Assembly (NCBI GenBank): GCA_964017235.1
Contig: OZ024929.1
Span: 17,171,464 to 17,235,463 of the forward strand
Source of the DNA: Sabellastarte sp. h YS-2021
Taxonomy: Eukaryota > Annelida > Polychaeta > Sabellida > Sabellidae
Direction of reading: 5' to 3'
DNA: 64,000 nucleotides
Shown: in pieces, positions 6,181 to 64,000 of the stretch
Layout of the letters: each line of letters opens with the position of its first letter
Position numbering within the stretch: the first letter of the stretch is position 1
Program-made: the position numbers and the translations under genes
Notes under the pieces: model-generated
The model's input: the letters and a program-made list of their open reading frames with translations, nothing else
Told to the model about the DNA's origin: nothing
Databases searched by the model: none

Positions 6181-6186
6181 GTGGTC

Positions 6187-6560
6187 TTTAATGTAGTAAT
6201 AAATACCGATTGTGAGGGCTTTTGTTACAGGATATACAGAGGGCATTATTGGGGATTTTTTGCCGGGCATATATCCTCTAACAAACACCCTCACAGTCGG
6301 TATTTATTACTATTATAAAGACCGGCCTACCTGGTTGACAGAAATATCCCTTTATTTTTACAAGGTGACACAAACAAGGGAGCCGCCATATTGTTTTGAA
6401 TGCATGATCACCCTCGTAAAAACGGACGAATTTCCAAACAAGAAATTCGAAACGACACTTCCGTTTTTCAGCGGGCGGTTATCAGAGGTTTTACTCGCAG
6501 CTGATTCTATGCGCACAGACGGGTTTTCGTTCACTGAACACTTCCAGTCTTTATAATACC
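6187..6560 (+). repeat. hairpin-plus-TIR repeat, diverged third copy
   Basis: This matches the two near-identical copies at 58880-59281 and 62122-62523 with moderate divergence. It has an imperfect hairpin whose arms carry AATAAATACCGATTGTGAGG and its complement, then a block of about 245 bp bounded by 'TTATAAAGACCGG' and 'CAGTCTTTATAATA'. The open frame through it is a by-product of the repeat: amino-acid differences between copies are frequent and mostly non-conservative. Confidence 0.65.
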
Positions 6561-31767: not shown

Positions 31768-31804
31768 AGCTGTGGCGGCCCCAGGCTCTGGAATATAAAA
31801 TACA

Positions 31805-34168: not shown

Positions 34169-34170
34169 TG

Positions 34171-42503: not shown

Positions 42504-45500
42504 GTAAGCATAAGTAGCATTGTCAGGTAGGAGAACAGGTATCATTATCAGGAGGTGGCACCAGTGACACTGAATGGGTAGTGGAACCAGGGATACTGAC
42601 AAGTAGTGGGATAGATGACATTGACAGGTAGTGATCCAAAAATCTGATGAAAAAGTGATTATTTTTGTTCAAATTTGATCTGATCTTTACAGATCCATGT
42701 TAGTGAATACCACCCCAGTATATGTTAGAATCATATTGAAGATGGATCCAGTTCATTATTTTTTTTTTGTTTTTACAGGAAGTTGATCCGAATCCTTTGA
42801 GTCATGACCATATGTTTGGAGGAAATCTGTACATGCTGGAGTCCATTGGGAATGGCCTATCTTGTGCATATGTCAGACTGGATGTCTCAAAAAGGTGGGT
42901 CAATATCCTTATGTAACACCCTGTTCACGCTACAATGCGGGTTGACAAGGATTGAGGGTTGAAGCAGATTGAAGCAGATTCATCTCAATCTGGGTTGACT
43001 GTCCCCACACTACAGAGTATAATCTGGATTGACAGTCTTAAAAATTGGTCACAGTAAAGCCTCCAAATGCAGCTGAATGTAACTTGTTTAAATTACAATT
43101 ATTTTTCCCACATTGCTAAAACTATGAAAGATCCCAATTTAGATTAGCTTTCACATAGATAACTAGCTTACATAAGGTTTCATCATAAATCAAAGAAACT
43201 TTAGATTTTTTAGATTTTGCCATTTTTTCAGCAACAGACTAATTGCAATGTTATTAGATCATCCTACTACAATTACAAATATTCATACATTTTATACAAA
43301 TTGCAGTCATACAGAAATCATACAACAATCTTGCCTGGTGGCCGTTGCATTAATTGAGTTTCTGCTTACAAAGGATTAAGCTATATAGATATATAAGTAT
43401 AAAGTTATACAATTGTTTCAAGGCAGTAAATCAATTAATTACAGTACCATCACACTCAACCCTTATCAATCCGGATTGAGATTGATAGGTGTAGGAAGTT
43501 GATACTGGGTAGGGAAATTGGTTAGGCAGTGTACGTGTGCAACATCATGGTGTGACCTTGATTTGATGTTTGACTTTGCTGTAGTGACCTTGACCTATAA
43601 AATTTTGTCCGGGCTATATCTTGGAAACTGTAAGGTGTAGGAAGTGCATACTGGGTAGGGACATTGGCTAGGGTGTGTAGATGTACAATGTCATGGTGTG
43701 ACTTTGATTTGACCTTTGATCTTGCCGTAGTGACCTTGAACTATAATTCCTTGTCTGGGCTATATTTTGGAAACCATAAGGTGTGGGAAGTTGATGGTAG
43801 GGACATTGGCTAAGGTTTGTAGATGTACAATGTCATGGTGTCACTTTGATTTTACCTTTGACCTTGCCGTAGTGACCTTGACCTATAATTCCTTGTTTGG
43901 GCTATATTTCTGAAACCATGAGGTGTGGGAAGTTGTTATTTGGTAGGGACGTTGGTCGGGGTTTATATGTGTGCAATGTGATGATGTGACCTGGATTTGA
44001 CAATTGATCTTGCATATCTGATGCTATTTTATCTCTCTACAGGGATATCTGATTCTATTATCTCTCTTATATCTTTCTTATATCTTTTTACTTGAATCTA
44101 TGTTGTTGCACCTTTGGGTGTCTTTGATGTAGATCAAGCACTGTTAAAGTCATATTAGAAGTCATTAACTGTTTTACTTTTGCAACTTCCCATTGTAACA
44201 GATGGTATTGCATCAAGTGAGCCACAGGTTTTTCCCCATCTCCACATAAAAGCATGTATGGGTAATATTCAAAACATTCAAATCATAATTCGACCATACA
44301 AATGAATATGAAAATGGGAGAAGTCCTTAAAGCTTCATAATTTTTAGTTTACTGAATTGTCTTGTTTTAATACTTAATCTTCACAAGTAGTTTTATTCTC
44401 TTAGATGTTATTTTCTCTACTTAAACATTATTTGGACACTGACACGGCTCTGAAAGTATCCCAATCTGTGTACTGTTTCACTACTTTATATCTCATGGTG
44501 TTGAAAACTATTTCCCCAGGCTGTGGGGTACGGGCATCTCTGATTTTCTGTGTCATGTGACTGTATTTGTACAGTTATGCTTTTACATGGTAAATATTAT
44601 GTTGATGGAATGTCAGGTGTCATCACATTTATTTGACACATGGATCAGAATGGGAAAAGTTTTACAGTTAAAAACCTGATGAACACTAAAATTACATGAA
44701 ATAAATTACTTTAAATGGTTTGATCAGTTTCATTGTTGTTGCCATTTGAAGTTCTGAAGTGGAGAAAAGTATGTGGTAGCCACATTAAAGACTTGTCTAA
44801 CATATTCGAGAGAGTTATGACCAGAGATAGACTAAAATGTGACTATGATCTTGTGAATAGTACCAAGACTAAGAGAAATGTCAATTTATGACACAAGTCT
44901 TAGATTTAAGACTAAGTTAAGACCTCTTGTAAATATTGTACCAGGCTTGTGTTTATATCTATGTAAGGAAATCAGAATTGCCTGAAATAGAATCTTGGCT
45001 CAGGTAAAACAGATAATCTATACAGTAGAAAGCATTAAGATTCCCCCTCACCTGCAACTTGTGGAGCCAAGGGAATTTAAAAGTATAACGTATAGTCATA
45101 TAGGATCCGAGGACAGGTCCCAGGTTGGCAATGCATGTAATATCCATGTGTATATCAGCTCTGTTGGGTTTTCTTGGAAATTCTGCCTCAGCTCAATTTG
45201 TCAGAGTTGGCGATTCAACAAAATTAAATATATTCTCTAGAAATCTACCGGTTTAAAATGCTGACCATAAAAGATTAATGTCTGAATCTCTGCCTTTTAA
45301 ATTTTAAATATTATATCCAATAATCCTGCTTCCAATGTAAGCAGTAACAATTGTTTTTCCTTCCGAAGTCACATTATGGAGTATTTTAGAAAGATGAAAG
45401 CCTTAATTGATGTGACTGCTTTTAAGAGAGAGGGAGCTGTGTTTATTTTTCTATGTGCAGTAATCACAAGACACTGCTGACTAGGATCAAATATCAACAA

Positions 45501-48500
45501 AGGCACAGTAGTTTATTTACATGGTAGGGAGTCTCACAGCCAAGCAAGTATAGGTGTTCAAAATTATTCATATAAAACTTGATAGATTGGAGGCCAGTAA
45601 GCACTGTACGTAATGCTGGGGATTCTACTAGCAGTGAAATTGAAGAGAATCCCCTTCTATGTCCCGATGTTACTATAGCTGGCATTTTCAGTAGTTATAG
45701 GCATCAGACAAAACAAAAGAAACAAGGCCAAAAGGGGTTTCTGTTTACTCACGTGAGCCACAAAGCCATCAGAGACACGAGTAGTGCACTGAAGCGGTCA
45801 CCTGTCCAAGTACTAATGTAGCCCATTGCCCCTTAACTTGTGAAGAGAGAGGTACTCATCACGCTATGCCACAATTCATGAAAGTCTGGAGACAAAAAAA
45901 AAGTGATCGCTATAAGTGCAAGCCTTGCCAGTGCTCATGCTTAAAATGTTTTACTGTCTGAAAGCCAGCAATATAGCTCTAGCCAATATTTTGCTGCAGA
46001 AGAGATACAGAAGAGAAAAGGTATCAGTTGCTCTGGTATAGACAAGCTTGTCTACAGTTTAACATGGCAAAGAAAACAGTAAACATATGACTTGACTGGA
46101 GACACAGAAAGACACAGAATGACACAGAATGGGGAGGAAAGGCAGCATAAGGGCAACAGAAATGATATGATAATCTGTACTTATGGATAGTAATTGGTGA
46201 TGTCCCTCATTCCTCCTTTGCTAGGCGGAAATTTTGAAATGTTTGTCTTGTGCTGGAGGAGAGAGAACAGTTAAGAAGGTGTAAGATGATTTAAGAAGGA
46301 AGTATGCTGACTGTCTGTAGTGTGATCAGGGTATTAGTTAAGCTTTATCAGTACCAATCAGTAGAGCCCACCTAATTCATATATTTTATCTACATATTTT
46401 ATCTACATGGTAGTTTCCTTGTAATTAGGAAGAGCTTTGTTTGCAAAACAAAGTTTTAATCTGCATAATAAACTTTTGTTTTCCATAATATACTCCTACA
46501 TATACAATAGGAAAACTTCCCGAATGACACATAAAGAAAAAATATATTTTGAGAGAAGATGGCAATATTATACGAGTGTGTAGCACAAGTATTATATTGA
46601 TAATCTTTATGAGTGATGTATTTTTTTCTGTATATGTCTAATGAGGGATGTTTTACTTTTATTATCCACCATTTTGTATCATTTATGACTAAAATAACTT
46701 TATATTTCTAGAGAGAATCTGAGAAAGATGTCATATGTACAGGGGCATCGTAGAATATAAAAAAACCTCCGTGTTTATCTTGTTATTTTTCAGCAATTTT
46801 AGTAAGCATTTTTAAGAAAAAAATTTGAACAGAAGCGTTGTAATATAAAGACCTTTCCAATATATATAACACAATTTATTTGTAGGTTACAGAATATCCG
46901 AGATATTGGTGAAAACTGGAAGTTATTGACACTAGTTATCCATGGTGGAAGCCCTGTTGTATACAAACAATGTTACCCACTCTGTATATCCCCCTATATG
47001 GGTCACATATGGTGGATATGGCATATGGTGGATAATAAATGTATAATATGTCTGGTTATTGAATATCTCTTTCATGTATAAATGCTAAATATGAATACCA
47101 ATCAACTGTGTACATCATTGAAAAGGATTCTGGTAAAAGTTTGAGCCTTAATAGATGATAGAAGGCCTGCAGATTGTCAGCTCGTACAACCAAGAGAGTT
47201 ATGGAGTAATAATGTAATCATATATGTGATCCAAGTTTGATCCAAAATGAAAACCAAAAATGAAAATAAATAAATAATTACTTGAATACTTGATAAAGGT
47301 ATCTGGCAGATATTTAGTAATTAGTATTTTAGATACATGTATTTTCAAAAAGCCTCCTCTGGAAAGCATCTCCTTAAGTAAAGGAACGTCAGTTCTTACC
47401 TTAGATTTAACATTTACAAAGCTTCCTTTAACTGTCCTTACCAAAGGAGTTTCTTGAAACTTAAGGAAGTGAGTTTTGATAAATGTGGTGCCGTGCTGGG
47501 CTCAAAGTGTCAAACGATGGCCGTCATGTGACACCAAAATTATTAAAAATTCCCTTGCTTCCTTAAAGTTTAATGGTTTTTCATTGAAATTTCAAGGTCT
47601 CCATTGAGGAAGGAGGCTTTATGAAACTAATTTTCATTAAAACGGGGGGGGGGGGGGGGTTGCTGTGCAGAACTGGGTCCCACCGAAAAGTTGATGTTAA
47701 TCAGCCACAATCATTTTGTCTACTTTCTGTTTTATTTTTCAGAGAACTAACAGACGTGGATTTACTTGAGAGATACATCCACCTGCGTTACATCGACCTC
47801 TCAGAGAACTACATCAAGAGCCTGCAGCCTCTGGCTACCATCACTCACCTGTGTTCATTGAGTGCCAGCAAGAACAGACTACAGTTCATACAACTGGATG
47901 AGCTGCCATACCTTCAAACTCTGGACCTCAGCCATAACAAGATCATCAGCATGGACAACATGAGTCATCCTTTACTGGAGGAGCTCAACCTGAACGGTAA
48001 TGGAACCTAAAGTTAATCAGACCTTTTTGTGCTAAGGGACTGTTCACAAATATGTACGAAATCTAAAATTCGCCAGGAATCTAAAATTCGCCACCTCTAA
48101 AACCTTAGTTAGTTTTATGAAGAAAATGACGTTTTGTCTTAAAATTGGTATTTTTCAGTTCAAGAAGCCTTAATTTACTATACATTCAACAAATCTCACC
48201 TCAATTAATTTATTTTCTTAGTATTTCAACATGTGGCGAATTTCAGGTAAGTGGCGAATTTTAGATTTCTTATGTACGAGGTTGGATAGTGTAGACATTT
48301 TATGACGTCTTGTGCAGGCTCTACAATGGTTTTAATAGTCTTAAAATGATCATAGCAGCTTCTAAAATCAGTGCCCCTACCTGTGTGACTATGACAGCGG
48401 ATACTTTTTGAATGAATACAACACAATGGGATATATATATTTTAATTTTCTACTTTCTATTGTTTATTTACAATGCTACAGGCGTCTTTCTACTTTAGGG

Positions 48501-51500
48501 TCACCTTAAAGTTTTAGAAGAAAGTGAGTTTACTGCCACCTCAAAGTACTTTATAAGTTGCTGTCAGAATCTTATCAAGATAAAAACATTACATAATGAG
48601 CATAAACTGAGTTTAAGCTGACAGCTTAAGATAAGGTGGCCTTAATAGTTACATTTAAAACTTAGCACTTACTTATGATGAAAATAAGGTGACCCTAATC
48701 TAAAGTTTACTAAAGAATACTATTTACAGTACATGTATATATATATAATCGAGGTAGATGCCAACCTCCACCAATGCCCAACTAGGAGGTAGTAGAAGGG
48801 CGAGAAAGCAAGGATTGGAAAACGTCGGCCACCTGTTGGGAGGCATCATGATCTTGTATTATATATCTCCAGACACAGTCAGACGTCCAGGTGCCATGGC
48901 TCTGAATATTTTGAATGGAAATGTTTGAGTTAAAAGCTAGGGTGGCACCTGAATGCCTGAAAGTGTGGAGGGACATAAAGGATTCTTGTAAACCTAGTCT
49001 TGATAAGATTTGTGAGAAATTTTTTCTTGCTTTAGTATCTGTTAAGGGAAGCCATTGGGCTTTATCATTTTTAATCTGAAAGAGAGGGGAATCCTGATGG
49101 CCTGGGGTAAGTAGTAACAAATTTTTCAAAGCTCTCACTGGACACAGTGGGGAGGCATTTAACGATGGGAGCTTCAAAATCTTGATAGAATCTCTAGTTT
49201 GCATTGTTTTGCTCCACTTTACTAGTATGTGCAATCCTGGTGGGGCAAAGAAGACGTCACCCCTAGTAAGCTGTTCAAGGGGGGAAAAAGCTGAAATTTT
49301 GTGTGGGACTAGGTTAGAAATACGTAGAAAAGAAAAGAAGGCCATTAAGTATAATGCTTTGAAGATCTGCCCCATCCACATTGTATCACATATATCCACG
49401 ATTCTATTGAGTAGATTTACATCTATGATTTTCTTAATTTTTACCGTAAATTTCTTGTTCAAGGCCAGAGATCTTTGAAACAATTTGATCCTGTTATCAT
49501 GGAATGCTAATGTGGAGATCCCATACATATTTAAGCTAGTTTTCACAGCTGAGATGTAATTTGCAATGGCAGCATTTGAAACCCCATTTTCAGTCAAAAA
49601 TTCCAAGAATGAGAGAAGGATAACTGGAGAAAGTTGGTGTAGCTGTATGTGTATGAAACAACAATATGCAACAAACAGTCTGAATTTTCTGTCGTATGAA
49701 GCCAAGGTGGCTGGTCTGAATGCCTGTTGTACTCTTTGTGCTGCTCTGGAAGCCAACTGTGCCGCCGTTGTGTGTAAACCTGTTATACAGACCAGTCAAT
49801 GTTAGCTATATCTTGAGGGAGGTGTAACCACCTGGGGTTGGGCAATAATTTTTTCAAAATTTTATGAGGGTCATTGGTAATATACCACCTGGATAATAAG
49901 TCTGCAATCTTATTATCAGCTCCTAAGATTTGTACGACCTGCAAGTCAATGTCATGTTGAGCTATATCCATCATGACATTCCTAGCAATTGCTGCTAAGG
50001 TCAAATTCTGTGTTTTTCCCGAATTCAGGACTGTAACCACAGCCTGATTGTCACATTTGAGTAATACCCGTTTATTTTTCCAATTTTGTTTCCACACCCG
50101 TACTGCCACTAAAATGTTTAACATTTCCAAATGTACTATTGAAAAGTTTTGGCAATGTTGTGGTATTGGTATGGCATATACTTGTCCAATATAAACCGCA
50201 CCCAGTCCCTTCAAACATGCATCAAGCTCTATGGTAGCCTGTATAGGGCGGTGAACAAAAAAGGCCTTGCCATTAAACGTAGTGAGGAATTTTTTGAACC
50301 AGTTCAGGTCTCTATAGAAGTTTATATCTAGTGTAATTTTTTCCTTGCTGAAGTGACTTCTAAGTGTATCTAACATTTGATTCAGAAAAAATCGAGCACT
50401 TTTTACACATTTAGATACGTATAGTAGTGCACCTAATAGTGATTGTAACTCCTTCTTGGTGCATTGTGATTTTTTAGTCCAATTGTTGCAAATTTGAATT
50501 ATTTCAGTCAATTTTTTATCTGGAACTGATACAGTAAATTCAACCGTGTCCACATCTACTCCTAAGCAGGTGACCTTGCTAGTGGGAGTGACCAGTTTCT
50601 TAACACTTATGTCTAGGCCTAGTTTGTGAAGTAAGGATTTTAGTGCTTCAAAAGATGGTTTAGCAGTGCTTATAGTTCCAAATCCGATGACGTCATCAAT
50701 ATAGTTGATGACGTCATAACCTTGTGACCTCATTATGAAGCGTATGGCATCGCTTAAGCGTTGAAAAATCCGTGCCTGAATCCGAAAGGCAGGCAGGTGT
50801 CCAGATAGTAATCCTGGTGCCTTAAACCCAACAGGAAGTAATCTCTAGGGTCAATTTTGACATGCCTAAAAGCTCTACTAATGTCTATTTTGTATAAGAG
50901 GGAACCTTTGCCGAATTTTCTAACCTTGTTGGTGATTGTATCAATAGAGGGTAAGGTTAGTATGAAATCAGTGCCTAGATACGATTCTTTACTAATATTT
51001 GAATTTACTGCCTCCCCTAGGGGAAAGTTCAAGTCAATTATAACCCTTCTGTGGGGGTGCCCCCGGTTTCTCCCTGGTCATGAATGGGGAAATGTGAAGG
51101 TTGTCCAAGGGAGGTTCCCTAAATGGGCCATGTATAGCCCCAAACTGAATTTCTTCTTGTAGGTATGCTTCTACATCCTGAGGAAAGGCTAGTGCTGACA
51201 AGTGATTTTTTGCATTTGTTCCCAATTTAGAATTTCTATTAAAGTCAAGGGGAAACCCATAACGTATCAGAAAAGGTAGTTGTTCATCCCAATAGCCCTT
51301 GAGTAAATTTTGCCACACGTCTGGGTTCAATTGTGATGGAACTTGTATTTGGGACGTTAGAAAATTGAAATCAGTCTGACTTCTGGTTGCATCTTAGAGT
51401 TTGATCGGATCCAAACCCAGACTACGTTTTTTATCTGATTTTGGAACCACTAGGGGACCTAAAGGTATAAAACCAAATTTGTCTTCATTCTGGTTATTCC

Positions 51501-54500
51501 AATTTTTGAATGTGGGGTCAGTATTGGCCTGCCTCATTCTTTCTTTGTTTTTATTTCTCATTTGTAAAGCCAGTCGATACTTGTCATCTGTCCCCTGATC
51601 ATTGGAGCACATTTTTAGGGTTTTTTGATTCCCTATTTCAATATTGTTAACTTTATTTTTTCACCTTCGTGTTTGTTTGAATTAGAGCGACGCATGGTGA
51701 TTTTTTCAATACCTTTTGACGCCCCGACAAATTGTGTGTCATTTTCTTGACACCCAGTCACTACAATATGATCATTCTCGACACTGGGACAATCTGTGTT
51801 GTTGTCACCTTGTATTTCAGTCGAGGGGGCAAGAAGTGCGAACCTATTTTTGGTTTTACACTCAGAGCCCAAGTGCACTTGACCAATTTTTTCTCGACAT
51901 ACATTGTTGTCCTTACACATGACTTTATTGACATTATGCAAATGCTTCAGATTTGCAGAGCAGACTGGGGAAGTACTGACTTGACATTTTTTGACACTTG
52001 TTTGACACCTTTGAACCTTTTGACGGGCTGTATAATCAATGGAGTTCTGATTTTGAACTGTCTGATTTTGTTTCATTCCAAACTTGACCACTTGTGCATA
52101 AGTTTTACCTAAGATTCTAGCCCAGTCTGCTTTCCAATTATGACTGAAGCCATTGTTGCTATTGTTAGTATACACAGTTCTTGTTTTGTGATTATTTACA
52201 CTATTTTTTACTAAAACTGGGTTATCAACTTTAGGCACTGCCCTGTGGCAGTGCCTTACTCGTTTTTTGTTGACCTTGTTGACACTCTGCAATCTTTGGC
52301 CATGTGTCTGTGCTCCTTACCCATTGTGTAACAAGTGGCACAAATATGTCTATAGAAGGTACCCCCTGTTTCATGGTCCCTATCTTTGTGACACATACCC
52401 CTTTGGAAAAAACGACAAACAGCTGATTTGGTGTCAGAAGAGGGCTTTGTTTCAAATTTGGTTCTGTTACCTGTGGCTAAACTTTGAGAAGGGAGTCTCT
52501 GCACATGCGCACGCCTAACTCTATCAATCTTACTGGTCTCAGACCATTCAATTTTGCCTTCCTCCATTCTACATAGGAGCACCGCGTGAGCTGCCTTTGC
52601 AGACTAAAATCATTAGCGTCATCCATCAGTTCAGTAAGATAATCTAACATGGCATTCTTAGTTTCAATATTGTTCTCTTCCTTAGCAATCATTGCAAATT
52701 CCGATACCCACTGGCACCAACTAAAACTGTCATAAGACACCCTACTTTTGTTGCTTCCCCCTAGAACAAAGTTCTGTGGCCATGGGACTTGCTTTTTTAC
52801 AAATACAGTATCATGACCCCCTCGCTGAGACTTTAACTTGCCTGATTCGTTTAGTTCCGTGAGGTGCCTGATTCGCCTGTTGACCTCTGCCTGTATATGT
52901 GAAGCTCCCTGTAATGCTGATACAGAAGGCACCACCGTCTGTTCCAACTGGGCTGTACTGGACACTGTTGCCGCTGTACTGGCTTCCTTGGTTGACTTTG
53001 ACCTTTGGGTGACCTCCAGCTGATCTGTTTCTGCCATGCGTTGCTCCATGGCGGTCATTCTACCGCCTAGATTCTTCAACTCTGCCAAGATTTGCATATT
53101 GAGTTCATTGTCGGTTGACTGACTAGTCACCCCACTAGACGTAGCTAACTGATCATTACGACTGTCCAATTCTTCAGTCTGAGAGTCAGTAAATTGACAC
53201 TTGCTATTAATCGGTCTTTTATGCATATTACCGCATTTCTTGCATAACAGTTCCTTTGAAGGCATTTTGCCTGATTTTTATGTTACAATGTTAATTCTCT
53301 GAAATTCAATACACACACAAACCGTGCTGTGATTAATGAGAGAATATTAAATGAATGAGTTTTGTAGCACGATGGTAGCAAGAATTTGTTCAATTAGCCG
53401 AGAGCATAGCCCCTGCAACAGCAGTTAACATGTAACTATGATTTGTTCAATAAGTCAAGAGCATAGCCCCTGCAACAGCAGTTTACGTGTAAATATGACT
53501 AAAAAATGACTAAATAAAAGACTAAAATATGTAAAATACGTAAATAAATTGTAAATAGAGAAATTAAATAAAACTCATTCCTTCAACGTGGCTCCAGCAA
53601 CCCAGAGCAAGTCTCGCATTAATCATAGCACTAATCCTGATTCTGTGCTCGCCAAGTCTTCCACAGCATGAGTCCCAAGGTCTGATGATATAATAAACGT
53701 AGAGCCAGAAACCACACTTCAACACTGAGGACATAAAGAAAAAAAAACTAAAGTCCTGGCTAAAAATCTTTGTTACATAAAAACACGTCTTGCCCCAACT
53801 AACTTACAGTGTTGAATGACAAAATGTAGCATTTGGCGGGAAAATGAATTAGCAATACATTGCTACCCTATCGAGGTCATTACATAACAAGAAAATCTTA
53901 CACTGGGGTGCACTGAATAAGGGGGCGCCTGTTGCTCCACCTCCCCAGTTTTTTAATTGTAGTAGCTATCCTCATTGTGGATACTTTTACTTACTCAGAC
54001 AAAATCTATGCAAAATCACTCTGATTCCGAAAAAAGACGCCTTTTAGTACATCCCCAATCAACAGGCCTACTGAAATAAAGTGAAACTCATGAAACCAAA
54101 ACATGGCTGGTCTTCAACAAAATCATTATGAAATCATAAAATGGACAAAAATATGGGATAAATGTTTATAATTTCTTCAGATTTAAGTCTCTTAATAGTA
54201 GCCCCCAACACCCGTTTTAAAAATGCATTGCGCTAGGGCATTTACATAGTGAATTATGCTGTCTTTTTCATTGCTCATGTGGCATTATGTAGTACACATA
54301 TTCCTCTACTTCTTCCTGTCTGTGGCAGCAGCCCTGCACTCCAGTGGGGTTCCAGCTGGACCAGCGTCTCTCTGTTGGCTGTGCTTCTCCATGCTTCCTT
54401 TGGTCTGCCTTTATGTCTTTTTCCCTATAGTGCCCAGGTCATTGCCACCTTTGTGTCTTCATCTCTTCTTAAGATCTGTCCAGTGTACAAGCATCTCCTC

Positions 54501-57500
54501 TTCTTTATATTGTTTTCTGTTTTTCTATTCCAGTTCTTTTGAACAGGTCTTTACTGGTTATTTTGTTGGGCCAATAAACTTTTAAAAAGTCTTCTAAAGC
54601 ATTTATTCTGGAATATTCCATAGGTTTATTGTATCTCCCACAGTTGTTTTCCACCATTCTACAACTTATAGTACTAGTACTGAATTAACACTGGTTTTAT
54701 CAATCTTCATTTCTTAATGTGTACTGTATCTGGTTAATTTTCCTGCATCTTTCAATGCTACAAAGCTATCTTGAAGGAGATCTAGAATGGAGAAGTATAT
54801 GCACAATATTAACTATTAAGCTCTGTAGTATGTGTATTAACTAAAAAAGGCATTGAGCAAAATTCGGTAAGAGCAGTCTGAATATCATAAATCTATATTA
54901 ACGTACATATCTCAAGTATCTGGACCTCAGTGCTAGCAATGTCATCACAATGGAAGGCAGGAATCTTCCTTGTGTAGGGCTATCGTTACAGATTTGAATG
55001 CATATATGGATCAATTGTCATATATTCAGATTTTGGTAATTTAAGCTTATCAGAGTTTTATAGGGCTTATTTATTTATTTATTCTCAAAATCGTACACTA
55101 GGTACACTACATTTAAATACAAAATAATTCTACAAATAACACCAATGTACATACATGTTCAATACCATTTTACAAGCAACACACACAGAGGGAAAAAACA
55201 TGAAGAACAAACACAAACAGCCTGTACTTATGTACAAATAAGTTACACAGAGATAACATAATAATAATTGCCATCAGCTACCAAGTGCTGAAAAATTCTA
55301 GCAAGTCATTAATTTCATTATATTTAAACAAAGTAAATCTGGTATCTCTAATGAAAAGAAGATCTTTAATATTTCCAATGTTTAGTAAATCATCCAACAT
55401 ATAAATTTTGTCAACATAATTATCTACAACACTTTTAAAGACACTTGGCATAGCCCATACTGTATTTCTGTTACATTGAAAAAATTCAGTTACAACATTT
55501 ATATTATTAGAAACAGACGAACCACTGCCATAAATGGCTAGGTTACAGCACATTTTCACTAGTACATTATTACTACTACATGCTTTGAATAAAAACGTAT
55601 TGAATCTCCTATACAATTGTGCGTTTATGGGTATGTCATTACAAATCAGCGGAAGATATTTACTATGAGTTAAAAGAGGTAACTTTAGTAATTTTCTGAT
55701 ACCTTTTCGCCAAGTAACATAGAATCTAGAAATGAAGTTTGATTCAAAGTCCAACAGCACACAGCCATACAAAGACATACAGTATGATTTGAATAACTTA
55801 TACTTAACATCTGTGAAAGCATCATGAAAGGATGCAATAATGCCATTTAAAGCAGTAGTGAACCTATCAATACCATCTTGAATTACATTAGTTTTGGCAC
55901 AAGGTCCTACCGTGTGCCCCAAATGTGTTGCAAGAGCTTTACACTCAATCACTTGATTGTTATGAACAATGTTTTCAATTACTTTTCTACTTGTGGAATA
56001 GTGTAACAGTTGGTATTTATTGGAATTAAACAAAACTTGATAGTCTCTTCCAAAGTCATCACATATGTTTAACATTGACTTCAAGGCATTAACTGTTGGT
56101 GCAAGTATAACTACATCATCTGCATATGCTACAGTACCCACGAATGTATTACCAATATGACAGCCAAGGCCTGCCTGTTTTAATCATAATAGTAATACAT
56201 CTACATAAACAGTAAACAGTAAAGGTGAAAGTATACCGCCTGGCTTGACGCCATTATGAACACAAAATTCTCTTGAAACTTGTGATCCCCATTTCACACA
56301 AAGACGCTGATTAGTATACATATACAATAGTAATCGACAAACAACAGGACATAGTTTTCTATTGACAAGAAGTGAAAACAACTTTGTATATTCAACATGG
56401 TCAAATGCCTTACTGGCATCCAGCATCATAACATAAACATTGGTGTTGGTATTTTTATAATATTGTAAAACTTCCTCTAAAACAAAGGTACATTGAGTGG
56501 TTGAGGAATCAGATTTAAAACCAAATTGAAATTCAGAGGTATTTAATAACATTCTATACCTGTTTAAAATAATGTTATCCAGTAATTTTCCAATAATACT
56601 ACTCAGAGTAATACCCCTGTAATTACCAGAATCGTTGATGGATTTAAATTTGTTTTTAGGAATAGGTATAGCCGTTCCTTTTAATATACCACTAGGGGCA
56701 AAACCATGAATAAGCATGGAACTAAACAAAAGAGTTAGTACAACATGTAGCTTGTGACAACTATATATCAAGTGATTTGTACAATGACCTGAGTCAATAT
56801 CAGTTTTGTCCCTTTTAAGGACAGATATTCCTTTTATTACATTAGATACAGTAATCTTATTGACCAATTTTAACTCCCCACTGCACATTAAATTAACATC
56901 ACTGTCAATCTTGGCCTTAAGTTTGTTCAAATTCTCCACATTGTAGGGTACAGACTTGTACAATTGTTCATACTTTGATGCAAAGAGGTCACTGATTTTT
57001 TCTTGCCCCGCAACAGAATCAACACTGCAGGGTAAATTAGACTTGACACCCTTCACCTTTTTTATATTAGCCCAGAAACCTTTTAACTCACTATCTAAGA
57101 TCTGTTGGGCCATTTTATTAGCAATAATAGTCCTTTTACTTTTTGTAACATATCTTATAGCATAATGATATTTATAACGGGTTCTACGCCTGACATCAGC
57201 CACAATCCCACTAGAGGGACAACCATTCTGCTGCCACAGCTTGTGCCAAAATAACCCCTGTAGTAAAAGGTTATAGGGTACAACTGGATAAACTACATAT
57301 CATCAGATTTTGGACTTTAATATCATCAGTATGGTGGTCATGAGACATCCTTTTCTAAAGGAGGAGTTACATCTGAATGGTAATTTGTTGTAATCAGATA
57401 TTTGTAGGAACTGATCTGTCTATCAACGGATTATAAGGCTCATTAAAGGAAAAAAATCAATACATGTATTTGCAAGTTAGTGAGACACGACTCCTGAAAA

Positions 57501-58030
57501 ACCTAATTGGTACAATACATGGACAGTGATGGCCAACACATATATAATAATAATACTGGGCTCTTATATAGTGCTTTTTCTATCATTAGCTCAAAGCGCT
57601 TTACACAGTATTACCCCAGCAAGGATAGCTAGCCTTGGTAACCTTACCTATTGCTGCCATGCAAGGCGCAGAAGCCAGTATCCCTTAAAGCTGGGTACCC
57701 ATATTTCTCCTGGGTGGAGAGAGGCACAGACCAGGTTAACATCTTGCCCAAGGATGTTATCCCACATGAAACAGCTGGCATCACTGGGAATAGAACCCAC
57801 AACCCTTGGATTATAAGTCCAACACCCTACCAACTGAGCCACATGAGACCCCTATATACTATTCATACCTATTCTAGAATGTCATTGTTTTTTTTTCAGA
57901 CAACAGAATTAGCAGGATAAGCTTTCAAGATTTGGACAAACTTCAGTGTCTGAGAATCCTTGACCTGCGAGGAAACCGCATTGCATCATTAGATGCAGAA
58001 TTCCCACCTAATCTAGAGGAACTTTATCTG
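42357..58030 (+). CDS. LRRC23: LRRC23-like leucine-rich-repeat protein, 5' part (four exons)
   Basis: Exons 42357-42503, 42779-42894, 47743-47996 and 57900-58030 join in frame (phases 0, 2, 1, 0) to give 216 codons; the gene runs on past the window. The N-terminus is strongly acidic (MSDIEELEDEGEQLEDEMDD). Then come GNGLSCAYVRLDVSKRELTD and LERYIHLRYIDLSENYI, followed by LRRs ending in the phrases LRILDLRGNRI and PPNLEELYL. The order and wording match vertebrate LRRC23 (acidic start, NGL.xAYVxL, LTD, YIHLRY.D.SEN). LRRC23 is a radial-spoke component of motile cilia and sperm flagella, so a ciliary role is expected. The third intron is about 9.9 kb and packed with retroelements. No continuation exon was found before 64000. 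Confidence 0.85.
42779..42894 (+). CDS. LRRC23: LRRC23-like exon 2
   Basis: 116 nt, acceptor GTTTTTACAG, donor AAAAG|GTGGGT, ends in phase 2. It encodes VDPNPLSHDHMFGG and then SIGNGLSCAYVRLDVSK, the segment just before the LRRs. Confidence 0.85.
42915..43480. repeat. possible decayed inverted-repeat element
   Basis: 'GGGTTGACAAGGATTGAGGG' near 42943 and the complement-like 'TCAACCCTTATCAATCCGG' near 43457 form an inverted pair that brackets AT-rich sequence. The outer word CACACTAC resembles the 6561-7067 MITE ends. Weak evidence. Confidence 0.35.
43480..44020 (+). repeat. 146-bp minisatellite, four units, plus conserved flank
   Basis: The landmark AGGTGTAGGAAGT or close variants recurs at 43486, 43632, 43778 and 43920 (spacing 146, 146, 142). 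It belongs to the same family as 59760-60770. The sequence downstream to about 44380 ('CATCAAGTGAGCCACAG', 'ATTCGRCCATRCA') also matches 60840-61070, so the array is one part of a longer dispersed element. Confidence 0.85.
44021..44380 (+). repeat. 3' flank of the minisatellite-bearing element
   Basis: It matches 60780-61072 with moderate divergence: 'AACTTCCCATTGTAA', 'CATCAAGTGAGCCACAG' and 'TATCTTGTTTTAATACTT' type phrases occur in the same order. No protein coded. Confidence 0.65.
44381..45785. other. intron 2, nothing recognised
   Basis: AT-rich intronic sequence. Small open frames on both strands near 45000-45240 and 45494-45821 have no recognisable motifs. Confidence 0.45.
45788..45950 (-). 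repeat. 5S-rRNA-like SINE, copy 4
   Basis: The - strand reads AAGTTAAGGGGCAATGGGCT, then TTAGTACTTGGACAGGTGAC and CGCTTCAGTGCACTAC. It shares the upstream GACTTTCATGAATTG block and a further upstream block ('AAGCATGAGCACTGGCAAGG') with copy 2. Confidence 0.7.
45951..47742. other. intron 2, remainder
   Basis: AT-rich. It contains a poly-G run at 47643-47659 and otherwise nothing I can name. It ends in the pyrimidine-rich acceptor TTTTATTTTTCAG. Confidence 0.5.
47743..47996 (+). CDS. LRRC23: LRRC23-like exon 3: first LRRs
   Basis: 254 nt between TTTTTCAG and ACG|GTAATG, phase 2 in, phase 1 out. It encodes the LRR units LHLRYIDLSENYI-type, HLCSLSASKNRL, YLQTLDLSHNKI and the start of LLEELNLN. 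This is the exon whose decayed copies appear near 54900 and 57278. Confidence 0.88.
48059..48277 (+). repeat. MITE-like element, family A (copy 2)
   Basis: Opposite-orientation partner of 408-628, with the ATCTAAAATTCGCCA terminal motif at the left and GGCGAATTTTAGATTTC at the right. It begins 62 bp after the exon 3 donor. Confidence 0.65.
48493..48707. repeat. MITE with CTTTAGGGTCACC ends
   Basis: Left end CTTTAGGGTCACCTTAAAG; right end AAGGTGACCCTAATCTAAAG, an inverted pair. Internal GCTGACAGCTTAAG-type words are also palindromic. About 215 bp, non-coding. Confidence 0.6.
48782..49756 (-). CDS. Ngaro-like tyrosine recombinase (324 aa, intact)
   Basis: It has the catalytic Arg in FFSFLRISN, an HxxR box in HTFRHSGATL, and GTWTSDCVWRYI with the presumed tyrosine. 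The N-terminal part contains RPATLASYDRKFRLFVAYC. It aligns end to end with the recombinase at 30811-31767. It is the only undamaged gene of its element, which may reflect chance or later mutation of the others. Confidence 0.88.
   Translation of the reverse strand: MASRAAQRVQQAFRPATLASYDRKFRLFVAYCCFIHIQLHQLSPVILLSFLEFLTENGVSNAAIANYISAVKTSLNMYGISTLAFHDNRIKLFQRSLALNKKFTVKIKKIIDVNLLNRIVDICDTMWMGQIFKALYLMAFFSFLRISNLVPHKISAFSPLEQLTRGDVFFAPPGLHILVKWSKTMQTRDSIKILKLPSLNASPLCPVRALKNLLLLTPGHQDSPLFQIKNDKAQWLPLTDTKARKNFSQILSRLGLQESFMSLHTFRHSGATLAFNSNISIQNIQSHGTWTSDCVWRYIIQDHDASQQVADVFQSLLSRPSTTS
49783..50733 (-). pseudogene. Ngaro-like RT C-terminal part and RNase H
   Basis: It starts just before the YIDD box (VINYIDDVIG), followed by the RT thumb/connection (LHKLGLDISVKKLV, then LQSLLGALLYVSKCVKSAR). 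RNase H shows ATIELDACLKGLGAV, HLEMLNILVAVRVW, LKCDNQAVVTVL and KIADLLSRWY. It is continuous in this span but cut from the upstream RT by a frameshift near 50745. Confidence 0.85.
50754..51330 (-). pseudogene. Ngaro-like RT N-terminal part, frameshifted
   Basis: Two frames. 51034-51330 has PLDFNRNSKLGT and HISPFMTREK. 50754-51032 has FPLGEAVNSNISKES, YKIDISRAFRHVKIDP (first catalytic Asp present) and CLPFGFRHGF. The break near 51040 sits at a G5/C5 homopolymer stretch. Confidence 0.8.
51394..52292 (-). pseudogene. Ngaro-like ORF2 N-terminal region
   Basis: Basic, Asn/Lys-rich frame (51633-52292, with ILGKTYAQVVKFGMKQ) like the start of the 787-aa protein of the sister element (KSGKSYAQVVQI). 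It continues after a break as 51394-51612 (KFGFIPLGPLVVPKSD). Confidence 0.65.
52256..53265 (-). pseudogene. Ngaro-like Gag, frameshifted
   Basis: The N-terminal frame 52477-53265 starts MPSKELLCKKCGNMHK, with a small CxxC pair, and holds SQRGGHDTVFVKKQVPWPQ. The C-terminal frame 52256-52582 has the Cys/His cluster CRFFQRGMCH, then YRHICATCY. The shift is near 52590. It aligns with the Gag at 34171-35369. Confidence 0.8.
53323..53640. repeat. inverted repeat enclosing a tandem 66-bp duplication
   Basis: ACTCATTC and ATTAATCACAGCAC words (complement of 53323-53375) pair with 53572-53632. Between them 'GAGCATAGCCCCTGCAACAG' occurs twice, about 66 bp apart (53399 and 53458). It lies at the 5' side of the degraded YR element and may belong to its leader. 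Confidence 0.5.
53641..54295. other. intron 3, nothing recognised
   Basis: No coding or repeat feature that I can name. Confidence 0.45.
54300..54490 (-). pseudogene. relic of a LINE reverse-transcriptase C-terminus
   Basis: Translated on the - strand it gives ILRRDEDTKVAMTWAL, a stop, then GKRHKGRPKEAWRSTANRE and HWSAGLLPQTGRS. This is the common metazoan LINE ending (ALTW.P.GKRKRGRPK.TWRR ... A.DR..W). One in-frame stop and loss of the tail mark it as dead. Open frames on the + strand here are shadows of it. Confidence 0.65.
54895..55060 (+). pseudogene. possible decayed LRR exon copy
   Basis: The + strand at 54907-54960 translates as YLKYLDLSASNVITMEGR, resembling exon 3's YLQTLDLSHNKIISM. 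A second stretch near 55010-55050 ('TGGATCAATTGTCATATATT', 'CAGATTTTGG') resembles the DNA around 57282-57314. There are stops between, so it is not a live exon. Confidence 0.35.
55066..57270 (-). mobile_element. 5'-truncated LINE (non-LTR retrotransposon)
   Basis: On the - strand, with a TTATTTATTTATTTATT stretch on the + strand (an AATAAATAAATAA-type 3' tail) at 55066-55083. The octamer TTATAGGG occurs at both borders (55058-55065 and 57271-57278), a likely target-site duplication. It encodes the RT and C-terminal region; the endonuclease is missing, so it is 5' truncated. Clade is uncertain, perhaps CR1/L2-like from the C-terminal phrases. Confidence 0.8.
55278..57203 (-). pseudogene. LINE reverse transcriptase with one in-frame stop
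   Basis: The frame 56184-57203 (and upstream to about 57260, with WHKLWQQNGCPSSGIVADV) holds the RT core: AIPIPKNKFKSINDSGNYRG, ITLSSIIGKLLDNII, MMLDASKAFDHVEY and NGVKPGGILSPLLFTVYVD. After an in-frame TGA it continues in the same frame as GCHIGNTFVGTVAYADDVVI (catalytic YADD) to the C-terminus at 55278, with WRKGIRKLLKLPLLTHSKYL. Only one stop in the whole span, so decay is slight. Confidence 0.85.
57278..57379 (+). pseudogene. decayed copy of LRRC23-like exon 3 (3' part)
   Basis: It aligns with 47890-47996: TACAACTGGATAAACTACAT parallels ATACAACTGGATGAGCTGCC; ATCATCAGTATGG parallels ATCATCAGCATGG; CATCCTTTTCTAAAGGAGGA parallels CATCCTTTACTGGAGGAG. It ends at the same donor position (AATG|GTAATT). 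A small internal deletion breaks the frame. The LINE abuts its left edge. Confidence 0.6.
57545..57853 (-). repeat. tRNA-headed SINE with conserved-domain body
   Basis: The - strand starts GGTCTCATGTGGCTCAGTTG (A box TGGCTCAGTTGG), has GGGTTGTGGGTTCTATTCCC (weak B box), then a long body with 'CTTGGGCAAGATGTTAACC'. It ends 'AAAGCGCTTTGAGC' and 'GCACTATATAAGAGCCC' followed by AGTATTATTATTAT. The ending is the widespread SINE/LINE tail of marine invertebrates and fishes. It lies only 47 bp upstream of exon 4 of the LRRC23-like gene. Confidence 0.8.
57900..58030 (+). CDS. LRRC23: LRRC23-like exon 4: further LRRs
   Basis: 131 nt, acceptor TTTTTTTTCAG, donor TATCTG|GTAGGT, phase 1 in, phase 0 out. 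The split codon restores LNDNRISRISF, followed by LDKLQCLRILDLRGNRI and PPNLEELYL. This confirms direct joining to exon 3. Confidence 0.88.
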
Positions 58031-58742: not shown

Positions 58743-58879
58743 CCATCGAAAGCCACACTGTAATTAAATTGTTTTACTGATATATAAATGGACTGAACAA
58801 AACTATGAAACCATAAGAAGTTTTCTATCACCTCGACAATGCATAGTATTGTGCAGACAGTAACAATAATTCTAATGTA

Positions 58880-59034
58880 GCAATAAATACTGATTGTGAG
58901 GGCGTTTGTTACAGGATATACGCCCGGCAAAAATTTCAAATAATGCCCTCGCGCCTCACAGCGCTCTGACATTATTTGAAATTTTTGCCGGGCGTATATC
59001 CTGTAACAAACGCCCTCACAATCGGTATTTATTA
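58880..59034. repeat. 65-bp-arm hairpin
   Basis: Arms 58880-58944 and 58970-59034 are complementary over 65 bases with about two mismatches, enclosing a 25-base GC-rich loop. A copy lies at 62122-62276 and a diverged one at 6196-6312. Confidence 0.85.
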
Positions 59035-59038
59035 CTAT

Positions 59039-59281
59039 TGTAAAGACTGGCCTACCTGGTTGAAAGAAATATCTCTTTATTTTTACGATGTGACACAAAC
59101 AAGGGAGCTGCCATACTGTTTTGAATGCATGATCGCCCTCGTAAAAGTGGACAAATTTTCAACGAGAAATTCGAAACGACACTTCCGTTTTTCAGCGGGC
59201 GGTTATCGGAGGTTTTACTCCCAGCTGATTCTATGCGCACAGACGGGTTTCCGTTCACTGCGTACTTCCGGTCTTTATAAT
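59039..59281. repeat. block bounded by GTAAAGACTGG / CCGGTCTTTATAAT
   Basis: A block of about 243 bp next to the hairpin with short inverted ends. Copies at 62281-62523 and 6315-6556. The open frame through it is not conserved between diverged copies. Confidence 0.6.
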
Positions 59282-59759
59282 GATTGTTTGAATTACAGTA
59301 AAAAACATATAAGTTGATATACATTAGCAAACATTTAACCAGTCCAACAATAGTTGAGATGACTGATACTTTGGTAACCTTGTATATGGTTATTACTGTT
59401 AATTTTTCACCCTGTACCAGCGGTAAAAGCACTGAATGTAGCAGATTATCATTGAAGGGGAATCATATGTAATATCTTCATATGTGTCTGCATCAGTTAT
59501 AATAAGATCTTCTTTGAATGTTTCACTTAAGTCCATTGGATACTCTGTAAGTTGCAAATTTTAACAGAACGATAATGTCATTAACTTTCAAATATTTAGA
59601 AATATACCAGAATGAATATTCACTGATACTGGATTCATTTTTACCCCACAGCCCTTAAGGGCTGTCGGGGTATTGTTTTCACCCATGGTGTCCGGATGGG
59701 CGGGCAGGCGGGAGTCCGGGCGGGTGGGTGGGCAGCGGGAAATAGTTTGTCCGGGCTGT

Positions 59760-60770
59760 CTCTCAGAAACCGTAAGGTGTAGGAAGTTGATACTTGGTAG
59801 GGACATTGGTTAGGGGGTGTTGGTGTGCAGCATCATGGTCTGACCTTGATTTGACCTTTGACCTTGCCGTAGTGACCTTGAGTTTTAAAATCTTGTCTGG
59901 GCTATATCTCGGAAACTGTAAGGTGTAGGAAGTTGATACTTGGTAGGGACATTGGTTAGGGGGTGTAGGTGTGCAGCATCATGGTCTGACCTTGATTTGA
60001 CCTTTGACCTTGCCGTAGTGACCTTGAGTTTGAAAATCTTGTCCGGGCTATATCTCGGAAACTGTAAGGTGTAGGAAGTTGATACTTGGTAGGGACATTG
60101 GTTAGGGCTGTAGTTGTGCAATGTCATATTCTGACCTTGATTTGACCTTTGATCATGCCGTAGTGACCTTGACCTATAAAATCTTGTTCGGGCTATATCT
60201 CGGAAACCGTAAGGTGTAGGAAGTTGATACTTGGTGGGGATATTGGTTAGGGGGTGTAGGTGTGCAACATCATGGTCTGACCTTGATTTGACCTTTGACC
60301 TTGCTGTAGTGACCTTGACCTATAAAATGTTGTCCGGGCTATATCTCGGAAACTGTAAGGTGTGGGAAGTTGACACTTGGTAGGCACATTTGTTAGGGGG
60401 TGTAGGTGTGCAACGTCATGGTCTGACCAGGATTTGACCTTTGACCTTGCCGTAGTGACCTTGACCTATAAAATCTTGTCCGGGCTATATCTCGGAAACT
60501 GTAAGGTGTAGGAAGTTGATATTTGGTAGACATTGGTTAGGGGGTGTAGGTGTGCAGCATCATGGTGTGACCTTGATTTGACCTTTGACCATGCCGTAGT
60601 GACCTTGACCTATAAAATCTTGTTCGGGCTATATCTCGGAAACCGTAAGGTGTAGGAAGTTGATACTTGGTAGGGACATTGGTTAGGGGCTATAGGTGTG
60701 TATTATCATGGTGTGACCTTAATTTGACCTTTTACCTTGTCGTAGTGACCTTGACCTTTAAAATCTTCAT
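59760..60770 (+). repeat. 146-bp minisatellite with DR1-type sites, seven units
   Basis: The landmark AAGGTGTAGGAAGTTGA occurs at 59774, 59920, 60066, 60211, 60357, 60503 and 60647, spacing 144 to 146 bp. Most units contain TTTGACCTTTGACCTTG, a perfect direct repeat of AGGTCA with one-base spacing on the - strand. They also carry TGACCTTGA (complement TCAAGGTCA) once or twice. The third, sixth and seventh units have variants of the second half-site. Confidence 0.9.
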
Positions 60771-60779
60771 GGACCTTTG

Positions 60780-61072
60780 GGTCTGTCTTTTGATGCAGAT
60801 TAAGCAAAAATCATATTAGAATTTATTAAGAATTTTACTTTCATAACTTCCCATTGTAAGAGATAGAATTTCATCAAGTGAGCCACAGATTTTGCTCCAA
60901 CACCACAATAAGCATTCATTAAATGTATTACCACTTTTGTTTGCGTGGTAATATTCAAACCATCTAAACCATAATTCGGCCATGCAGATGTAGATAAAGA
61001 GTGTTGAATTTTAGTTTACTGATTAACGCTGTCATCTTGTTATTGAATTATCTTGTTTTAATACTTCATCTT
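60780..61072 (+). repeat. 3' flank of the minisatellite-bearing element
   Basis: Homologous to 44090-44380. It ends about where 'TCTTGTTTTAATACTTCATC' occurs. Confidence 0.65.
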
Positions 61073-61084
61073 TATACCGCCACA

Positions 61085-61262
61085 CTGTTTGTTATTGTTT
61101 TTACAATACCTTATCTCGGTATATGTTTTTGTTTCTCTTGTGTGTACATGAGCCATAACCTCGGCACTTGTGTATTATTAAAATAAACATATCTAGTTGT
61201 GGATATAGTTGTGTTGTTGACTCTATAAATTACCTGACGTGGTGGCAGCAGTCCTACCCATG
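61085..61262 (+). repeat. possible LTR end and primer-binding region
   Basis: It contains an AATAAA (AAAATAAACATATC) and then 'CTGACGTGGTGGCAGCAG', placed just before the Gag-like ORF as an LTR end and primer-binding site would be. I cannot define LTR borders or show a second LTR, so this is tentative. Confidence 0.35.
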
Positions 61263-61329
61263 CCAAGCTAATAAATAAACACTTAAAACTTAATTTCCTA
61301 AGACAACTACACTGTTTATTGTATACACT

Positions 61330-61984
61330 ATGGCTGTTGGTGGTGCCTCTACACGTGGTCCTAAACCTTGGAAACTGACAGAAGAGGAGTCATTTTCATC
61401 ATTTACCAGTTGGAAGCACAACATACTGTACTCTTTAGCACAAGAACCAACATTTAAACCATTCCTAGAGTCTGGGGCTACTTGGGAAAGACTCACTTCT
61501 GATAATCCCTCTAGGGGATTCACTGACTCTGATGGACTAACAAAAGAACAGAAGGCTGCCAATCTTGACCAGATGCTGGGACTGATCACCCAGTGGGTCC
61601 CACACTACCTTGCTAATGACATAACCAAGCAGAGCACGTCCATAGACAGCATTTGCCAGTTTATCCGAAAATACTATAGCTTCCAACAGTCAGAAACACA
61701 GTTTATGAAATTCTCATCCATAACTTGGGAGGAAGGAGAACGGCCAGAAAAATTATACCAACGCATCCTAGCTCATCTCCAGGATAACTTGCTGCGAAAA
61801 GACTCAAAACTCAAACACAATGATTGCAACCCCACCAAAGATGAAGATATCAGCCCCACCGTTGAGAGGCTAGCCGTCTTACGCTGGATGGAGCTAATTC
61901 ACCCTTCTCTCCCAGCTTTGGTACAGCGCACCTTTGCCTATGATTTACAGCATATGACTCTGAAAGATTTACAACCACAAATTG
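61330..61984 (+). pseudogene. Gag-like ORF of an LTR retrotransposon, truncated
   Basis: Open frame starting MAVGGASTRGPKPWKLT. The phrases FSSFTSWKHNILYSL, GLITQWVPHYL, WEEGERPEKLYQRILAHL and LRWMELIHPSLPALVQRTF fit a capsid-type Gag of Ty3/Gypsy-like retrotransposons. It is about 218 codons up to 61984, where the next duplication unit begins; the last dozen codons of the frame come from the junction. No zinc knuckle, protease or pol is present. Family assignment is by style and not certain. Confidence 0.6.
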
Positions 61985-62121
61985 CCATCGAAAGCCACAC
62001 TGTAATTAAATTGTTTTACTGATATATAAATGGACTGAACAAAACTATGAAACCATAAGAAGTTTTCTATCACCTCGACAATGCATAGTATTGTGCAGAC
62101 AGTAACAATAATTCTAATGTA

Positions 62122-62276
62122 GCAATAAATACTGATTGTGAGGGCGTTTGTTACAGGATATACGCCCGGCAAAAATTTCAAATAATGCCCTCGCGCCTCA
62201 CAGCGCTCTGACATTATTTGAAATTTTTGCCGGGCGTATATCCTGTAACAAACGCCCTCACAATCGGTATTTATTA
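62122..62276. repeat. 65-bp-arm hairpin, second copy
   Basis: Apparently identical to 58880-59034. Confidence 0.85.
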
Positions 62277-62999
62277 CTATTGTAAAGACTGGCCTACCTG
62301 GTTGAAAGAAATATCTCTTTATTTTTACGATGTGACACAAACAAGGGAGCTGCCATACTGTTTTGAATGCATGATCGCCCTCGTAAAAGTGGACAAATTT
62401 TCAACGAGAAATTCGAAACGACACTTCCGTTTTTCAGCGGGCGGTTATCGGAGGTTTTACTCCCAGCTGATTCTATGCGCACAGACGGGTTTCCGTTCAC
62501 TGCGTACTTCCGGTCTTTATAATGATTGTTTGAATTACAGTAAAAAACATATAAGTTGATATACATTAGCAAACATTTAACCAGTCCAACAATAGTTGAG
62601 ATGACTGATACTTTGGTAACCTTGTATATGGTTATTACTGTTAATTTTTCACCCTGTACCAGCGGTAAAAGCACTGAATGTAGCAGATTATCATTGAAGG
62701 GGAATCATATGTAATATCTTCATATGTGTCTGCATCAGTTATAATAAGATCTTCTTTGAATGTTTCACTTAAGTCCATTGGATACTCTGTAAGTTGCAAA
62801 TTTTAACAGAACGATAATGTCATTAACTTTCAAATATTTAGAAATATACCAGAATGAATATTCACTGATACTGGATTCATTTTTACCCCACAGCCCTTAA
62901 GGGCTGTCGGGGTATTGTTTTCACCCATGGTGTCCGGATGGGCGGGCGGGCGGGAGTCCGGGCGGGTGGGTGGGCAGCGGGAAATAGTTTGTCCGGGCT

Positions 63000-64000
63000 G
63001 TCTCTCAGAAACCGTAAGGTGTAGGAAGTTGATACTTGGTAGGGACATTGGTTAGGGGGTGTAGGTGTGCAGCATCATGGTCTGACCTTGATTTGACCTT
63101 TGACCTTGCCGTAGTGACCTTGAGTTTGAAAATCTTGTCCGGGCTATATCTCGGAAACTGTAAGGTGTAGGAAGTTGATACTTGGTAGGGACATTGGTTA
63201 GGGCTGTAGTTGTGCAATGTCATATTCTGACCTTGATTTGACCTTTGATCATGCCGTAGTGACCTTGACCTATAAAATCTTGTTCGGGCTATATCTCGGA
63301 AACCGTAAGGTGTAGGAAGTTGATACTTGGTGGGGATATTGGTTAGGGGGTGTAGGTGTGCAACATCATGGTCTGACCTTGATTTGACCTTTGACCTTGC
63401 TGTAGTGACCTTGACCTATAAAATGTTGTCCGGGCTATATCTCGGAAACTGTAAGGTGTGGGAAGTTGACACTTGGTAGGCACATTTGTTAGGGGGTGTA
63501 GGTGTGCAACGTCATGGTCTGACCTTGATTTGACCTTTGACCTTGCCGTAGTGGCCTTGACCTATAAAATGTTGTCCGGGCTATATCTCAGAAACCGTAA
63601 GGTGTAGGAAGTTGATATTTGGTAGGGACATTGGTTAGGCTGTGTAGGTGTGCAACGTCATGGTCTGACCAGGATTTGACCTTTGACCTTGCCGTAGTGA
63701 CCTTGACCTATAAAATCTTGTCCGGGCTATATCTCGGAAACTGTAAGGTGTAGGAAGTTGATATTTGGTAGACATTGGTTAGGGGGTGTAGGTGTGCAGC
63801 ATCATGGTGTGACCTTGATTTGACCTTTGACCATGCCGTAGTGACCTTGACCTATAAAATCTTGTTCGGGCTATATCTCGGAAATCGTAAGGTGTAGGAA
63901 GTTGATACTTGGTAGGGACATTGGTTAGGGGCTATAGGTGTGTATTATCATGGTGTGACCTTAATTTGACCTTTTACCTTGTCGTAGTGACCTTGACCTT
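63000..64000 (+). repeat. 146-bp minisatellite, second array
   Basis: Same family and sites as 59760-60770, with unit variants in nearly the same order (for example GGGCTGTAGTTGTGCAATG, then GGTGGGGATATTGG, then TTGACACTTGGTAGGCAC). It continues to the window end. Confidence 0.9.

Follow-up and report, generated by a model that had tools for sequence, protein, structure and literature searches.

Satellite-like arrays in Helentron-type elements are known already. The closest known systems to the locus described here appear to be the Cg_HINEs of the oyster Crassostrea gigas, a likeness drawn from description and not from sequence. Both have a subterminal inverted repeat (subTIR) with an inverted copy (IR), a GTCC-type microsatellite and short satellite-like central arrays. 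Both also have a 3' subTIR with a palindrome and insert into T-rich sites without target-site duplication (PMC7492417). The monomers of the Cg_HINE cluster CL6 measure 146-147 bp, like the 146-bp unit here, and the Pearl elements of bivalves, again likened by description, are HINE-like with short arrays of ~160-bp central repeats (PMC7492417). Cg_HINEs differ from the element here, which has a right flank of ~450 bp, and receptor motifs are not mentioned for them in the parts of that account cited here (PMC7492417). The Helentrons HINE-Mo and DINE-1 are likewise non-coding, with subTIRs of 12-15 bp near the ends, a 3' palindrome and T-rich insertion without target modification (PMC4067079). 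They inhabit other hosts and have a known autonomous partner (PMC4067079). A similarity of another kind concerns the motifs that such elements carry.

Alu repeats move by retrotransposition and provide single receptor sites with ChIP support. They are non-autonomous mobile elements that multiplied nuclear-receptor-type motifs to very high number: human DNA has 108,582 consensus DR2 elements, 90% of them in Alu (PMC1785376), and Alu repeats also carry HNF4 sites (PMC3252374). Unlike Alu, the carrier here is of rolling-circle type and its candidate sites form arrays of DR1. A family delivering clustered exact DR1 at such scale would be the counterpart of the Alu/nuclear-receptor case in another element class. 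Literature searches joining Helentron or HINE, tandem repeats and nuclear receptors returned no title on receptor sites in Helentrons, and searches joining tandem repeat, nuclear receptor, transposable element, DR1 and mollusc found none, which does not prove absence in print in either case.

Anatomy of the element and its insertion sites

The window, the whole stretch of 64,000 nucleotides that was analysed, holds three arrays of a unit that is very probably the central repeat, satellite-like in character, of a non-autonomous rolling-circle transposon of the Helentron type (HINE). The assignment draws on termini, hairpins, a microsatellite, insertion into a T-run without target duplication, thousands of copies, and the gain or loss of units and heptamers. 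In the literature, HINEs are recognised by their subTIRs, an inverted repeat at the 5' end, a microsatellite, repeats in the centre and a palindrome at the 3' end (PMC7492417, PMC4067079). The element here has subTIRs at both ends (TACCCCACAGCC and GGCTGTGGGGTA), a 5' IR, a microsatellite, central tandem repeats, a 3' palindrome and insertion at a T-run. The following features were located in the window.

43487..44013, + strand: array of 4 decayed units in an older copy that is truncated on the left; exact DR1 in 0/4.
44107..44552, + strand: right flank of the older copy, closing with the 3' subTIR GGCTGTGGGGTA at 44519.
57548..57658, + strand: empty site, paralogous to the place where the HINE in L018 is inserted; 107/111 identical, T-run intact, no duplication.
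58743..61984, + strand: copy 1 of a tandem duplication (3242 bp) that includes the left part of the HINE, by sequence comparison.
59638..59641, + strand: T-run bordering the HINE on the left, the insertion site, by sequence.
59642..59653, + strand: 5' subTIR TACCCCACAGCC, 12 bp, with the inverse 12-mer at the 3' end.
59659..59672, + strand: inverted copy (IR); DNA folding pairs it with the 5' subTIR in a hairpin.
59690..59739, + strand: degenerate GTCC/GGGC-type microsatellite, by sequence; its length varies among copies.
59747..60767, + strand: central array of the HINE; 7 units of 144-146 bp, exact DR1 in 4/7.
60768..61077, + strand: first part of the HINE right flank, up to an inserted LTR retrotransposon.
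61078..61240, + strand: LTR belonging to the inserted retrotransposon and not to the HINE; 163 bp, identical to 64320-64482 and to L009 8063-8225.
61985..64000, + strand: second copy of the tandem duplication, continuing to 65226 beyond the window (L009 3226).
62884..62895, + strand: 5' subTIR in the second duplication copy.
62989..64000, + strand: central array, second copy; 7 units, the last cut by the window end (true array end 64009), exact DR1 in 4/7.

The 5' subTIR and its inverted copy form a hairpin (59642-59672) with a z of -5.79, and 0/200 shuffles are as stable in DNA folding. At the opposite end, the stem of the palindrome GCATC-NNN-GATGC is present in all 19 uncut 3' ends, with a hairpin energy that is unremarkable (23/200 shuffles as stable; DNA fold). 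The 3' end of the second-copy HINE lies at L009 8368 and following, L009 being a genome stretch that extends beyond the window. Across other copies the array is bracketed on the left by TTTTTACCCCACAGCCCTTAAGGGCTGTCGGGGTA and then the GTCC/GGGC-type microsatellite, and on the right by GGCTGTGGGGTACGGGCATCTCTGATGCTATTTTT. No ORF of at least 120 aa was found in 59642-61077, the part of the HINE left of the retrotransposon. The right flank speaks against the assignment, since it measures ~450 bp in most copies and exceeds the 60-bp right consensus of oyster HINEs (PMC7492417).

The T-run is a recurrent feature, with TTTT directly before the 5' subTIR in 28 of the 38 elements chosen by their 5' end (described below). 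In addition to the empty site at 57548-57658, the HINE in L043 has inserted into the flank of a further HINE, and L036 (120/140) and L017 (115/137) provide uninterrupted counterparts of that stretch. The comparison of L014 with L028 is less clear, and empty sites are few overall. At these few sites, insertion took place in a T-run without target-site duplication. By analogy with the published class, an autonomous Helentron would supply the Rep/helicase that moves the HINE in trans. The array might travel as a passenger, with a unit number that drifts by slippage or unequal exchange.

RXR, HNF4 and COUP-TF are binders of DR1 elements. The initial annotation described a tandem array of 144-146 bp units with a perfect DR1 in most of them, present in three places. 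The array is real: Tandem Repeats Finder returned a period of 146, 7.0 copies and 91% matches for 59747-60767, with unit lengths of 146, 146, 145, 146, 146, 144 and 146. The units match the DR1 consensus AGGTCA-N-AGGTCA in sequence. An exact DR1 is not present in most units overall: each of the two large arrays has it in 4/7 and the decayed array in none, making 8/18 in total. All 8 occurrences of the exact 13-mer TGACCTTTGACCT in the window fall within the two large arrays, and 27 matches were found with up to 2 mismatches, against 2.26 expected. Each unit of the two large arrays contains one or two copies of the motif TGACCTTGA, and each unit of the array at 43487-44013 contains none to two. 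The three arrays amount to two independent elements, because the two large ones belong to one tandem duplication.

Genome-wide scale and unit turnover

That a mobile sequence spreads regularly spaced DR1-like sites, as proposed initially, is borne out at the scale of the genome. The 15-mer TGACCTTTGACCTTG has 34,594 + 34,290 = 68,884 exact matches, or ~39 per Mb of the 1.786-Gb genome, carried in HINE arrays, and its reversed control has 5 + 4 = 9. The exact 31-bp 5' end of the HINE is found 2,653 + 2,599 = 5,252 times (control 0). Another 15-mer of the unit, the non-receptor word AAGGTGTAGGAAGTT, is commoner than TGACCTTTGACCTTG, with 43,449 + 43,377 = 86,826 matches (control 3). In matched context, the form with two heptamers has 21,135 exact matches and the form with one heptamer 6,734. 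All genome-wide counts of repeats are lower bounds, and the lists of match places are incomplete, two of them being at odds over minus-strand positions. Pattern scans of viral contig and genome contig collections gave no matches.

The comparison of units started from 40 elements selected by their 5' end regardless of the array; two were same-flank duplicates and were dropped, leaving 38. The 40 are entries 19-58 of 100 places listed among the 5,252, and they all lie on C1, from 4.0 to 18.2 Mb. The sample leans to younger copies because the exact 31-bp end was required. It replaced an earlier sample of 150 units, since the regions of the latter had mostly been picked by the DR1 itself.

Spacings between units are 145-147 bp in 136/209 cases and 138-140 bp in 38/209, with a mode of 146 bp (97/209). 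The second unit length, 139 bp, stems from the exact loss of one TGACCTT heptamer. Of the 232 nearly complete units, 146 retain an exact DR1, 39 have collapsed by exactly 7 bp and 47 are changed in other ways. Most simply, the DR1 consensus probably exists because two TGACCTT heptamers adjoin in the unit. Adjoining heptamers would be prone to slip, and mutated heptamers may be removed in this way, lowering the substitution rate. The one- and two-heptamer forms, present by the thousand and differing in exactly the receptor-type site, constitute a natural experiment.

Whole units turn over as well. Outside the array, the two copies of the tandem duplication differ by 6 substitutions in 2221 aligned bases (1/1004 on the left and 5/1217 on the right). 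In the first-copy array, unit A2 has no counterpart in the second-copy array B, and unit A5 equals the 5' half of B4 joined to the 3' half of B5 with zero differences. The common ancestor therefore had ~8 units, and one was lost per copy while the 6 substitutions accrued. The duplication is very young, and it may be a false duplication from assembly.

Conservation of the receptor-type site

A pure passenger model would predict a higher substitution rate in the DR1, unless mutated heptamers are cleared by slippage. In the 232 units, DR1 columns are substituted at 0.0184 against 0.0492 for the non-CpG rest, with 7/136 circular shifts as low. This gives a ratio of 0.367, with an element bootstrap of 0.227-0.508 and a value of at least 1 in 0/2000. 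When all columns are used, 4/146 windows along the unit are as low in substitutions, every one of them overlapping the DR1. Rates are 0.013 and 0.026 for the two DR1 half-sites and higher, at 0.040, 0.033 and 0.077, for the other occurrences of that word in the unit. Variants common to at least 3 elements are also fewer in the DR1, at 0.46 per column against 0.89 (10/136 shifts).

These substitution figures favour an explanation by selection, in which two-heptamer source elements prosper because a host nuclear receptor binds the array, through open chromatin, expression or host use. We regard this explanation as unlikely overall. One heptamer is missing in the 39 collapsed units, and the non-receptor 15-mer is the commoner of the two genome-wide. 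Private variants are fewer in the DR1 too (0.38 vs 0.75 in the 38 elements, though not in the first 18 elements alone, at 0.77 vs 0.63), although selection at the level of source elements predicts a deficit of shared variants only. Excluding CpG columns, one window at the junction of units has as low a rate as the DR1 (18 elements), and 7/146 windows are as low in substitutions in the 179 units that are gap-free at the 15-mer. Exact retention of the 15-mer ranks 12 of 127, or 4 of 127 in those 179 units. In the few units of the analysed stretch itself the DR1 is not special, with 51/146 windows as conserved. The expectation in the initial annotation that the DR1 be better conserved than the rest of the unit holds for substitutions in the 38 elements but fails with gaps counted as changes, when the DR1 window ranks 136 of 146 (first 20 elements). 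Between older and younger arrays, 0/9 consensus differences fall in the 44-bp half-site block against 2.7 expected (13/146 shifts), a deficit too weak to weigh.

Receptor recognition in vitro appears plausible because a PPAR-gamma decoy oligonucleotide contains the 15-mer TGACCTTTGACCTTG (PMC9775059), at least as this decoy is described in the part of the source cited here. The decoy alone turned up in literature searches on the unit words. In open chromatin, the ~69,000 dispersed exact DR1-type sequences could be binding platforms or decoys for receptors of the RXR, HNF4 or COUP-TF type. A benefit to the HINE through a host receptor is possible. It is rather improbable, though, that a host receptor of these types binds the array, keeps the element accessible and has its sites kept in source lineages, with the host gaining a receptor sink or a dispersed hormone-responsive network.

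Unit length, array origin and neighbouring repeats

The initial annotation stressed that the unit is close to the 147 bp of a nucleosome core. An array of nucleosome length might phase nucleosomes and present receptor sites at regular spacing, and the unit near 147 bp with its mode of 146 bp would suit such a role. We consider this very unlikely, and the proposed phasing found no backing. The unit lacks a 10-bp periodicity of AA/TT/TA (289/1000 shuffles as strong), and the discrete 139-bp class is made by the loss of a heptamer. At 146 bp, the unit is shorter than a nucleosome with its linker, and one nucleosome per unit would leave zero linker. The unit length is also ordinary for the element class: oyster HINEs usually have monomers of 140-180 bp, as far as the cited part of that account goes (PMC7492417).

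Even less likely is that ordinary satellite DNA came to lie beside transposon ends by chance. Among 25 array rows, from regions mostly picked by the DR1, both HINE ends are present in 14 (13 distinct arrays, one region being listed twice). One or both are missing in the other 11, so truncated or standalone arrays are common, a point in favour of that reading. However, selection by the 5' end alone gave 38 elements, and in every one the array follows that end in the same orientation; the 3' end was found in 20/38 within the 1.67-2.06 kb fetched.

The retrotransposon in the right flank of the HINE (L009 2320-8225) starts 310 bp after the array. Its 163-bp LTRs are identical; one ORF is gag-like, with no match in Pfam, and another matches reverse transcriptase and RNase H. 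The first duplication copy ends inside a gag-like ORF, and the older copy at 43 kb has the same right flank without the retrotransposon insertion. That the array is part of a retrotransposon LTR, suggested inside the window by duplicated flanks resembling LTRs around a short gag, can be dismissed with near certainty, as DNA beyond the window identifies these long repeats as the tandem duplication, the true LTR is only 163 bp long and lies right of the array, and other copies carry the array without any retrotransposon.

A different array of 147 bp with 8 units occupies 25672-26848, with TTTGACCTTGGACC and an inverted CCTTCAAGGTCAAA, and is related to single units at 19190 and 19641. A common origin with the HINE array was considered and is not demonstrable beyond the TTTGACCTT core. 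In alignments of the two arrays, 6 and 5/500 shuffles score as high, rising to 203 and 179/500 once the TGACCTT block is masked. Left of the HINE, the duplicated stretch includes a 160-bp palindrome at 58878-59037 with 89% between its arms, and a related repeat lies at 6183-6557. Clusters of minus-strand ORFs at 9282-13906, 30811-35369 and 48782-53265 have tyrosine-recombinase-like matches along with reverse-transcriptase or RNase H matches, in a DIRS-like layout. Reverse-transcriptase ORFs on the minus strand at 55278-57203 perhaps belong to a LINE-like element, and a leucine-rich repeat ORF at 47621-48010 is perhaps an exon of a host gene.
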